60,247 nt of DNA from Myxococcota bacterium (GTDB lineage Bacteria; Myxococcota_A; UBA9160; JAFDET01): assembly GCA_028278065.1 (NCBI GenBank), contig JANQFA010000215.1:1-60247 (forward strand), in the 5' to 3' direction. The notes below the pieces were generated by a model. It was given only the letters and a program-made list of their open reading frames with translations. It was not told the origin of the DNA and did no database searches. Both the position numbers and the translations under genes were made by a program. Below are positions 56,594 through 60,210 of this stretch, one piece after another. Position 1 is the first letter of the stretch, and each line of letters opens with the position of its first letter.

Positions 56594-57447
56594 GCGGAGC
56601 GGGGGTGCGCGCGCTCCTCGAGCGCCGCGGGCTCCGCCCCCGCAAGGATCTCGGCCAGAACTTCCTCGTCGACGCCGCCCTGGCCGAACGCCTGGCCGAG
56701 CGGGCCGGCGTTCGTGCCGAGGACGCGGTCATCGAGATCGGGGCCGGCCTGGGTGTACTGACGCGCGCCCTGGCCGCGAGGGCCCGGCGCGTGGTCGCCC
56801 TGGAGGTGGACGCGGGCCTGGTCCGCCTCCTCGAGGAAGAGTCCGTCCTGCCCCCGTCCGTGGAGCTGCGGCATGTGGATGCCCTCCAGGTGGACCTCGC
56901 TGCGTTGGCCGCGGAGCTCGAGCCGCCCGTGCGCGTCGTCGCGAACCTGCCCTACGTGGCGTCGTCGCGACTCCTGCGCGCTCTGCTCAGGGCGCGTGCG
57001 GCGCTGGTCGACTGGTCGGTTCTGCTGCAGCGTGAGATGGCGCTTCGGGTCACCGCTGCCCCCGGCTCGCGCGACTACGGCTCGCTCGCCGTCCTGCACG
57101 CCCTCAGCGTGACCGTCCAGCGCACCGGTGATCTGCGCCCGGGCTGCTTCCACCCGCGTCCCAAGGTGCTGTCGACCGCGCTGTGCATCGAGCCCCGGCG
57201 CGATTCGCCCCTGCGCCAGACAGGAGAGGGCGACGAGCTGGACGCGGTCGAGCGCGTGGCGCGCGCCGCGTTCGCAACCCGGCGCAAGACCCTCGCGAAC
57301 GCCCTGCGCGGGAGCGGGGTGCTGGGTGACACCGACGTGGTGGCGCTGCTCGAGGGCGCGTGTCTCGATCCGGGGACCCGCGCCGAGCGCGTCCCGCCCG
57401 AGGGCTTCCTCGCGTTGGCCCGGGCCTGGGCGGGAGCGGCAGTGTGA
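56590..57447 (+). CDS. rsmA: 16S rRNA dimethyladenosine transferase
   Basis: RPRKDLGQNFLVD, VIEIGAGLGVLTRALAARARRVVALEVD, VVANLPYVASS. Confidence 0.95.
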   Translation: MSGAGVRALLERRGLRPRKDLGQNFLVDAALAERLAERAGVRAEDAVIEIGAGLGVLTRALAARARRVVALEVDAGLVRLLEEESVLPPSVELRHVDALQVDLAALAAELEPPVRVVANLPYVASSRLLRALLRARAALVDWSVLLQREMALRVTAAPGSRDYGSLAVLHALSVTVQRTGDLRPGCFHPRPKVLSTALCIEPRRDSPLRQTGEGDELDAVERVARAAFATRRKTLANALRGSGVLGDTDVVALLEGACLDPGTRAERVPPEGFLALARAWAGAAV

Positions 57448-57519
57448 GTCCCTTGCAGAGGACCTGCGCCGGAGCGGCCGGGTGAGTCCTTTGCAGAGGA
57501 CCGGCGCCGGAGCGGGAGC
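57444..57519 (+). repeat. 38-bp tandem repeat of the rsmA 3' end / next RBS
   Basis: GTGAGTCCYTTGCAGAGGACCnGCGCCGGAGCGG at 57444 and 57482. Confidence 0.92.
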
Positions 57520-57801
57520 ATGAACCCTCTGGAGCTGCGCGACGCCCTGGCCGAGCTGGCGCGCGAGCTGGGGATCGATGTACGCGTGGTCACCGGCGCG
57601 AGCGAGCTGGAGCCGGGGATTCCGGTGCGCAGCGGCAGCTGCCGGGTTCGAGACGAGGTGTGGGTGATCCTCGTCTCGGGTGATCCCCTGGAGGAGCACA
57701 TCGCGATCCTCGCCGATGCGCTTCGCGAGCATGCCGGGGACGCGCTCGAGAGCCGCTTCCTGCCCCCCGCCGTGCGGGCGCGCCTCGACGGGGATTCCTG
57801 A
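57520..57801 (+). CDS. Small hypothetical protein
   Basis: MNPLELRDALAELARELGIDVRVVTGASELEPGIPVRSGSCRVRDEVWVILVSGDPLEEHIAILADALR; RBS-like GGAGCGGGAG upstream. Confidence 0.7.
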   Translation: MNPLELRDALAELARELGIDVRVVTGASELEPGIPVRSGSCRVRDEVWVILVSGDPLEEHIAILADALREHAGDALESRFLPPAVRARLDGDS

Positions 57802-57815
57802 GCCCCGGGCTCGGC

Positions 57816-57844
57816 TTGACCGCGCCCGGGCGGCCCCTTACCCT
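57816..57844 (+). promoter_or_regulatory. Sigma70-type promoter of the panBCD leader
   Basis: TTGACC-N17-TACCCT. Confidence 0.7.
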
Positions 57845-57850
57845 TTCGAC

Positions 57851-58094
57851 CGTCGAGGGGAATCGCACGGTGCGATCTCCATCGCCACTACATAGGCCCG
57901 GGTCGCTCCGCTGCGGAGCTCCACGGGAAACGAAAGCGTCGCATCACCTCGAGCCCAGACATCTGCTCGTATCCGCCACGGCGGAGCGAGACGGGGGCAG
58001 ATCGGGTGAATCGGCAAGGGTGGGCGGGCCAGCGGCCCGACCGTCGCGTCGAGGAACCGCGCCTCCGGATCATCGGACGGCGCGCTTTTCTTTT
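57851..58094 (+). ncRNA. Candidate structured 5' leader (riboswitch/attenuator) upstream of panB
   Basis: Four strong hairpins (57857-57880, 57905-57919, 57961-58002, 58025-58039) between a promoter and an intrinsic terminator; no coding-like ORF. Confidence 0.6.
58058..58094 (+). terminator. Intrinsic terminator just upstream of panB
   Basis: CGCGCC-TCCG-gatcat-CGGA-c-GGCGCG stem then cTTTTcTTTT. Confidence 0.8.
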
Positions 58095-58142
58095 CTGGAG
58101 CACGGAGCGGGAGCCACCCCGGGCAAGGCCGGGAGGGCCGTC

Positions 58143-58970
58143 ATGTCGACCGTGAACGCCGCCTCCGTCCGCGAGCATCGGACCACCATCCGCTCGCTCG
58201 CCCGCAAGAAGAAGAAGGGTGAGCGCTTCTCGATGCTCACCGCCTACGACTTCACCTTCGCCCGGATCTTCGACAGCGCGGGCATCGACGTCCTGCTGGT
58301 CGGCGACTCGCTGGGCAATGTGGTCCAGGGGCAGGACACCACGCTGCCGGTCACCCTCGACGAGACCCTCTACCACACCCGCATGGTGGCCCGGGGCGCG
58401 GCCCGCGCCCTCGTCGTCGCCGACATGCCCTTCGGGAGCTACCAGGTGTCGGCGGAAGAGGCCGTGCGCGCGGCCATCCGGCTCGTCAAGGAGGGCGGGG
58501 CCCAGGCGGTCAAGCTCGAAGGCGGAGAGGACGTGGCCGAGGCCATCTCGCGCATCGCCGCCGCCGGGATCCCGGTGATGGGTCACGTCGGCCTCACTCC
58601 GCAGTCGATCCACAAGATGGGCGGGTTCCGCGTCCAGGGCCGCAGCGAGGCCGGCCGCAGGCGGGTCCTCGCGGATGCCCGCGCGGTCCAGGAAGCCGGC
58701 GCGTTCGCCGTCGTGCTCGAGGGCATGCCGGCGCCGCTGGCCGCCGAGATCACGGCCACGCTGAGCATCCCCACCATCGGGATCGGCGCCGGGGTGGACT
58801 GCGACGGACAGGTCCTGGTCATGCACGACATGCTGGGCCTCTCCGACTGGACGCCTTCGTTCGTGAAGCAGTACGCCGATCTCGGCGCGCTGGCCTCCCG
58901 CGCGGCGCGGGCCTTCGCCGAAGAGGTGGCCGACGCGAAGTTCCCCGCCGACGAGCACACCTACCGCTAG
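58143..58970 (+). CDS. panB: 3-methyl-2-oxobutanoate hydroxymethyltransferase
   Basis: SMLTAYDFTFARIFDSAGIDVLLVGDSLGNVVQGQDTTLPVTLDETLYHTRMV, GHVGLTPQSIHKMGGFRVQGR. Confidence 0.97.
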   Translation: MSTVNAASVREHRTTIRSLARKKKKGERFSMLTAYDFTFARIFDSAGIDVLLVGDSLGNVVQGQDTTLPVTLDETLYHTRMVARGAARALVVADMPFGSYQVSAEEAVRAAIRLVKEGGAQAVKLEGGEDVAEAISRIAAAGIPVMGHVGLTPQSIHKMGGFRVQGRSEAGRRRVLADARAVQEAGAFAVVLEGMPAPLAAEITATLSIPTIGIGAGVDCDGQVLVMHDMLGLSDWTPSFVKQYADLGALASRAARAFAEEVADAKFPADEHTYR

Positions 58971-58972
58971 CC

Positions 58973-59866
58973 ATGCAGGTGATCGAGGAGACGCGCCGCC
59001 TCCAGGAACGGGCCGACCGGGTCCGTGGCGAGGGGCGCACCATCGGCCTGGTGCCGACCATGGGCGCGCTCCACGAGGGCCATCTCTCGCTGGTGGACGC
59101 GGCCCGCTCCAAGGCGGACGAGGTCTGGGTCACGATCTTCGTGAACCCCACCCAGTTCGGTCCGGACGAGGACCTGGACCGCTACCCGCGCCCGCGCGAC
59201 GCAGACCTGCGCCTGTGTCGCGCGCGCGGCGTGGACCTGGTGTTCGCACCGGACGCGTCATTCTATGCGGGGGGGCATGAGACCTGGGTCGACGTCGCGG
59301 ACCTGACCCGTCCCCTGTGCGGCGCGGGACGCCCCGGCCACTTCCGCGGCGTCACGACCGTGGTGACCAAGCTCTTCCTGGCCGCCAAGCCGCACGTGGC
59401 GGTCTTCGGCGAGAAGGACTTCCAGCAGCTCGCGGCCCTGCGCCGCATGGCTCGCGACCTCAACTTCGACGTCGAGGTCGTGGGCGCACCCATCGTACGC
59501 GAGCCGGACGGCGTGGCGCTGTCGAGCCGCAACCTCCTGCTGCGCAGCGACGCTCGTGCCCAGGCCCCCGCACTCGTGCGTTCGCTGGACGTGGCCGAGC
59601 GCCTGGTGCGGGATGGCATGCGCTCTCGCGAGGAGATCCTGGCGCGTGTGCGGGCCGAGCTGGCCCGCGCCGACCTGGGCTGCGTCGAGTACGCGGAGCT
59701 CCGCGAACCCGAAGGCCTGGCTCCCGCTCCCGACCTCCTCTCGGGCCCGACGCTCCTCGCGCTGGCCGTTCACTTCCCCGCTTCGGCGGGAGAGGGTGCG
59801 ACCGTTCGGCTGATCGACAATCGCGTCCTGTACGCGACCAACCCCTCCCAGGAGACCCCCCGATGA
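58973..59866 (+). CDS. panC: Pantothenate synthetase
   Basis: [60 protein letters not shown]. Confidence 0.97.
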
Positions 59867-60210
59867 CCCGCAAGATGCTCAAGTCCAAGATCCACAGGGC
59901 GACCGTGACCGAGGCGAACGTCGAGTACGAAGGCTCGGTGACGATCGACTCCGAGCTGCTGCAGGCGGCCGACATCCTGCCCTACGAGGAGGTGGACATC
60001 TGGAACTGCTCCAACGGGGCGCGCCTCTCGACCTACGTGATCGAAGGTGAGCCCGGCTCCCGCGAGATCTGCGTGAACGGCGCCGCAGCCCACCTGGTGA
60101 AGCCCGGCGACCTCGTGATCATCGGAAGCTGGGCCATGGTGCCCGAGGAGAAGGTGCACGGCTGGGAGGGCATCCGGATCTTCGTCGACCACAACAACGA
60201 GATCCGCTAG
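59863..60210 (+). CDS. panD: Aspartate 1-decarboxylase
   Basis: [46 protein letters not shown] processing site; ATGA overlap with panC. Confidence 0.97.

Follow-up and report, generated by a model that had tools for sequence, protein, structure and literature searches.

A divergent tandem pan RNA as a probable transcription attenuator of the panBCD operon in an order of Myxococcota

Introduction

The exchange between a terminator and an antiterminator is a general mechanism of attenuators and riboswitches. The target recognized by TRAP, for example, is an array of short trinucleotide repeats. Less is understood about the pan RNA motif (Rfam RF01749), which is found before panB, panC and panD and usually consists of tandem stems, each with two bulges 5 bp apart (Weinberg et al., 2010; PMC2864571). 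In the main text of that description, the simple dimeric structure of the motif was read as the binding site of a dimeric protein, and no mechanism for pan is given either there or in the literature searched, a coverage outside which many journals fall. An RF01749 element has also been reported in the 5' UTR of the panB–panC operon in a Paenibacillus transcriptome (PMC5670726). In addition, a 2022 review lists CoA among the cofactors without a known riboswitch (PMC9971707). Here, the leader of a panBCD operon from a Myxococcota bacterium is compared with these systems, and we conclude from sequence comparison that it is very probably a tandem pan RNA, in a divergent and elaborated form, through which transcription of the operon is attenuated.

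Organization of the panBCD leader

The features of the leader and of the operon are collected in Table 1, with the coordinates of the window, that is, the whole stretch of 60,247 nt that was analysed. An earlier note on this DNA had described a promoter at 57816-57844, a hairpin with a bulged A at 57857-57880, further hairpins at 57905-57919 and 58025-58039, a GC-rich stem plus TTTTCTTTT ending at 58094, and the panB ATG at 58143, and every one of these elements lies exactly where it had been placed. The promoter is moreover conserved: 61 of 68 relatives have an exact and correctly placed TTGAC, and the distance from the end of the -10 box to the first hairpin (P1) is 10-15 nt, and 18 nt in one case, among all relatives scored. 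By this conserved promoter, transcription is predicted to start at about 57851, not more than a few bases from the foot of P1. A simple consensus scan of the leader for promoters and terminators, which is too strict for a leader of this kind, made no call; since composition alone gives no proof, the reality of the leader rests on its conservation. The leader RNA folds better than 200 dinucleotide shuffles of it (z = -2.48).

Table 1. Coordinates of the leader and operon features in the window
Feature	Position	Strand	Basis
Sigma-70-type promoter TTGACC-N17-TACCCT (boxes 57816-57821 and 57839-57844, spacer 17 nt)	57816..57844	+	Sequence read; -35 and spacing kept in relatives
Leader RNA, 243 nt if terminated	57852..58094	+	
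P1, first pan hairpin, UCGA-GGGGA-[A57862]-UCGC..GCGA-UCUCC-[A57881]-UCG	57852..57886	+	10/14 pairs with two-sided changes, 75 sequences
Linker, conserved 3' half GGAAAC..GAAAGCGUCGC, lineage-specific hairpin 57905-57919	57887..57952	+	Alignment A1
P2c 5' strand GCCC, partner 57995-57998 in the pan (putative OFF) fold	57953..57956	+	4/5 P2c pairs with two-sided changes
P2, second pan hairpin, UG-CUCGU-[A57971]-UCC..GGA-GCGAG-[A57991]-CG	57964..57993	+	99% of cells paired; 7/10 pairs with two-sided changes
Switch strand CGGGGGC	57992..57998	+	Pairs with 57953-57956 (P2c) or terminator 5' arm 58061-58067
Intrinsic terminator, hairpin CGCGCCUCCGG..CGGACGGCGCG then UUUUCUUUU	58058..58094	+	Terminator in 61/70 order leaders
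Terminator 5' arm CGCCUCCG, antiterminator partner (pairing 58061-58067)	58060..58067	+	
Shine-Dalgarno GGGAGGG of panB	58131..58137	+	Sequence read
panB, ketopantoate hydroxymethyltransferase	58143..58970	+	PF02548, E 5.5e-117
panC, pantoate-beta-alanine ligase	58973..59866	+	PF02569, E 7e-91
panD, aspartate decarboxylase	59863..60210	+	PF02261, E 2.5e-48

Some features of the surrounding DNA deserve mention in their own right. A 384-aa frame running from TTG 57816 into panB was rejected as an open frame of GC-rich DNA, as the PanB relatives align from ATG 58143. Just before the leader lies a 93-aa open frame (57520-57801) without Pfam match, and several relatives show LPPAVRARL-like C-terminal ends before the leader that resemble the end of this frame. 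Finally, a near-perfect direct repeat of about 34 bp (GTGAGTCCYTTGCAGAGGACCKGCGCCGGAGCGG) is located at 57445-57520 of the window, between a ksgA-like gene and the 93-aa frame.

Conservation and covariation of the two hairpins

When 61 relatives were searched at the DNA level with the leader, many families of the order proved to have short, highly similar blocks immediately before panB. R1, a covariance model, was built from a plain MAFFT alignment of 33 panB upstream regions (A1), all from this order only, and 75 matches fitted to R1 constitute a second alignment (A2). The R1 element is present in 73 of 80 genomes of the order, with about one strong element per genome, and it stands upstream of panB wherever both share a contig; the copy of the window scores 105.4 bits (E 5e-23). 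Beyond the order, the rest of 378 genomes, from the same phylum, gave five weak and mostly partial matches. A minus-strand match of R1 in the window (57804-57886) is simply the palindromic P1 read in reverse. Two further loci of the order can be recorded here: one genome has, besides the element before panB, another R1 match at the very end of a contig (G013:C8:2-90), and a different genome has kept P1 alone, directly before the panB Shine-Dalgarno sequence (L152; G025:C7:15492-15550), as a single-stem version.

The conserved pairings are those of P1, P2 and the helix P2c at the base of P2. In A2, 92.9% of cells are paired, compared with 39-51% for slid versions of the structure, and two-sided changes occur at 21 of the 29 base pairs, with none of 500 shuffles equalling any of the five measures used. 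The same kind of result has been obtained with A1 (15 of 29 pairs two-sided, 0/500 shuffles), and the independent RNAalifold prediction returns the same P1, P2 and P2c. For P2c, a comparison of own with permuted pairing energies was not significant (463/5000). A helix closing around P2 (P3, GACGCC/AAGGC), attractive by eye, is not claimed, given its permutation result (3972/20000). Both P1 and P2 carry one bulged nucleotide per strand, the two being 5 bp apart. In P2 these are A in all leaders read (70/70 and 71/71); in P1 the 3' bulge is A in 68 of 71 leaders, and the 5' bulge is A in 53 and C in 20.

The check on panB upstream regions proposed in the earlier note thus came out in favour of a conserved RNA, with some revision of the hairpins that it had listed. 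These are all real in the sequence; those at 57905-57919 and 58025-58039, however, fall in variable spacers and are not conserved, and the long hairpin closed by ATCTGC/GCAGAT at 57961-58002 gives way to a different conserved pairing, namely P2. Similarly, A57862 had been seen as a bulge; its counterpart across the stem, A57881 in the 3' strand, and both bulges of the second pan hairpin had been missed.

Read as DNA, the loop-proximal part of P1 in the window (ATCGCAC-G-GTGCGAT) forms a perfect palindrome and might be taken for the operator of a repressor acting near +1, the remainder of the leader being incidental. This is scarcely credible: P1 often contains G-U pairs (in 43 of 71 leaders at one pair), and these would not be retained in a symmetric DNA site; the bulges are asymmetric, the architecture recurs in P2 about 110 nt further downstream, and the same geometry is found in other phyla.

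Relation to the pan motif

An RNA reading of the leader raises its relation to the Rfam pan family, for which the earlier note had left four options (pan itself, a divergent relative, a new class or an sRNA). A scan of the window at the Rfam gathering cut-offs found no family, and the covariance search with RF01749 that the earlier note had suggested gave no match in the window, nor in the whole genome at E <= 10. With a gathering cut-off of 36.2 bits, RF01749 exceeds this value in none of the 80 genomes of the order; nevertheless, 30 of its 34 sub-threshold matches in these genomes, by a count of overlaps made by hand, lie inside R1 elements. A permissive Rfam scan of the leader also returned PrrB_RsmZ, HBV_epsilon and rydB below cut-off, which were rejected as chance.

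In other respects the two are alike. In the RF01749 consensus both hairpins have two bulged A's around a 5-bp helix, the same geometry as here, and a P2 core of about GGAUC..GACCGnGAC (also given as GGAUCC..GGACCGnGAC) is common to RF01749 and to the order. The recognition is reciprocal. The Rfam model has matches in the panB leaders of two Desulfuromonadales loci (L060 and L062), and when R1 was run against 73 unrelated panB loci its best matches included the P2 of these same two leaders and of other deltaproteobacterial loci; the top match (L077) is inside panB and was taken as chance. Of 80 loci that had been gathered by means of RF01749 from Desulfobacterota and Chloroflexota, R1 also matches 70 at E <= 0.1, mostly by P2 alone. 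The arrangement in tandem is likewise kept, with P1 and P2 both matched in most of the 75 sequences, and the element stands directly before panB–panC–panD in the window and before panB in the relatives. Bulge geometry, P2 core and mutual recognition by the models support the view, drawn from sequence, that the leader is descended from the pan motif or has closely converged on it. Since it misses the RF01749 cut-off, it is filed as a divergent relative, chosen among the four options on the bulged-A geometry, tandem layout, gene context and mutual recognition, and not as an Rfam-defined member. The order form differs in its longer, diverged P1, one bulge of which is C and not A in roughly a quarter of the leaders, and in having a long structured linker with conserved nucleotides (57887-57952, outside the Rfam pan consensus), the P2c base and a GC-rich switch strand.

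Terminator and alternative pairing

The terminator that the earlier note had located at 58058-58094 is present, and of 70 leaders of the order 61 have an intrinsic terminator in the interval from P2 to panB. The 3' flank of P2, which we call the switch strand, is complementary both to the P2c 5' strand and to the 5' arm of this terminator. Pairing of switch strand and arm reaches 94% of cells over 62 relatives, as against 52-60% for slid versions. When arms were located independently of the flank, own flank/arm pairs were more stable than permuted ones in the order (0/20000) and in the Desulfobacterota pan loci (0/20000), in permutations that ignore phylogeny; an earlier permutation in the order, with a consensus-guided arm, was not significant (625/5000). 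Most variation of the switch strand within the order is one-sided, the strands being so conserved, and compensations include a UG at f4-a5 in L153 and, by eye, GGAGAG/CUCUCC in L029. In two related genomes (L135 and L151) the antiterminator is weak.

Further compensation is found in Desulfobacterota, where 52 of 53 pan elements are followed by a terminator. In these bacteria the flank is typically CGGAAGG and the 5' arm CCUUCUG or CCUUCCG, with 6 or 7 of the 7 flank/arm pairs formed in 43 of 52 loci. Five loci with unusual flanks (L226, L227, L228, L246 and L267) keep the pairing via matching changes in the arm, and the compensatory pairs of separate lineages comprise CGAAAGG/CCUUUCG, CAGAGGG/CCUUCUG, CCAGAA/UUCUGG, CGGACGG/CCGUCCG and CUCAA/UUGAG. 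Such compensations in several lineages lessen, and do not remove, the concern about phylogeny in the permutation tests. In Chloroflexota the flank itself is not paired with the terminator arm (5468/20000); the P2 3' strand, however, pairs with the arm better than with letter-shuffled arms (0/200), in an exploratory comparison with arms picked by eye, and complementarity there seems to have shifted onto the P2 3' strand itself.

Variants without a terminator also occur. In genus g8 (L013 and L146; G009 and G022) no terminator was found, and the P2 3' flank (AGAGG/GGAGG) is the panB Shine-Dalgarno sequence, 8 nt before the start codon, which fits a translational version of the same switch and suits a logic in which folded means OFF. 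Another leader (L149; G020) is without recognisable terminator, and its flank GGGAGCG has a downstream complement, CGCUCC. As to gene context, one locus (L073:1960-1999, the same as L219, G381:C59) has a pan element plus terminator before a gene that by eye is Rossmann-fold reductase-like, panB being about 1 kb further on, and several pan elements of Chloroflexota (among L271-L296) stand before genes that by eye are Rossmann-fold reductase-like or DmpA-type peptidase-like, and not before panB.

With a promoter and a terminator of its own, the 243-nt transcript could alternatively be a stand-alone sRNA acting in trans and unrelated to panB control. We consider this highly improbable, as the element adjoins panB throughout the order, its switch strand overlaps the panB Shine-Dalgarno sequence in g8, and the alternative pairing of the terminator is conserved. 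The attenuator reading, already advanced in the earlier note, is instead backed by conservation of the terminator and by covariation in the antiterminator pairing.

Proposed mechanism and effector

The promoter, both pan hairpins, the terminator and the two alternative pairings have been shown by comparison of related sequences. From these elements, the following attenuation scheme may be proposed. RNA polymerase would start at about 57851 and make, in order, P1, the linker, P2 and the terminator. With P2 and P2c folded, positions 57992-57998 would be occupied, the terminator would form and transcription would stop after about 243 nt (OFF). With the base of P2 open, the same strand would pair with 58061-58067, preventing the terminator, and panBCD would be transcribed (ON). 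We infer that the pan fold is the OFF state and that control follows a feedback logic, in which a recogniser of both bulged stems would keep the leader in the pan fold and so switch the operon off; this recogniser would most likely be an end product of the pathway (pantothenate or CoA) or a dimeric protein reporting it. The scheme has in common with other terminator–antiterminator attenuators and riboswitches a strand shared by the sensor fold and by an antiterminator that competes with an intrinsic terminator, and differs from them in that the sensor is a pan RNA. The minimum-energy fold of 57852-58094 is the pan fold plus terminator (-113.4 kcal/mol), and enforcing P1 together with the antiterminator gives a best fold of -105.3 kcal/mol, a loss of 8 kcal/mol in stability. 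Because of this difference, the leader alone is calculated to favour OFF at equilibrium, and the modelled ON state would need kinetics, the absence of an effector during transcription or an activating factor.

Two versions of this explanation differ in the effector. The first, to which we would give an even chance, is a protein-bound attenuator, in which a dimeric RNA-binding protein would bind both P1 and P2 and, by stabilising the pan fold, lead to termination. Such a ligand agrees with the presence of two similar stems that share their pair of bulges and the fixed 5-bp distance between these, and it is also the one proposed by the authors of the motif in their main text (PMC2864571). What is conserved in this leader, two stems with bulges, differs from the trinucleotide-repeat array of TRAP targets. 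A protein that brought about termination by stabilising the fold of the leader would nevertheless make the system resemble TRAP attenuation of the B. subtilis trp operon (PMC3913778).

The second version, possible and on balance unlikely, is a metabolite riboswitch, whose tandem bulged stems, possibly with the order-specific linker, would bind pantothenate, CoA or another compound of the pathway directly. It would account for the position before a vitamin operon, the transcriptional expression platform, the tandem layout and the invariant bulged A's of P2, and the mutually exclusive folds of a metabolite riboswitch are indicated here, on comparative evidence, by the conserved and compensated flank/terminator complementarity; a CoA riboswitch is, in addition, a conspicuous gap (PMC9971707). 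On the other hand, each pan stem has a conserved part that is small by the standards of aptamers, the conserved nucleotides of the linker are missing from the pan consensus of other phyla, and the main text of Weinberg et al. took the dimeric structure for a dimeric-protein site (PMC2864571). More tentatively still, the pan family as a whole, together with the elaborated branch described here and its conserved linker, might be the missing natural riboswitch class for CoA or for a compound of the pantothenate pathway, with the tandem bulged-A stems binding the ligand directly.

Concluding remarks

Since its description in 2010, the pan RNA has remained an orphan. A whole order of bacteria is now seen to carry a form of it that Rfam misses, and the family gains a specific switch, supported by covariation, in which the 3' strand of the second hairpin or its flank would compete with a terminator. 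The question of what pan senses may thus be turned into a simple termination assay in organisms that carry pan, B. subtilis included, the outcome of which would bear on the existence of a CoA or pantothenate riboswitch.
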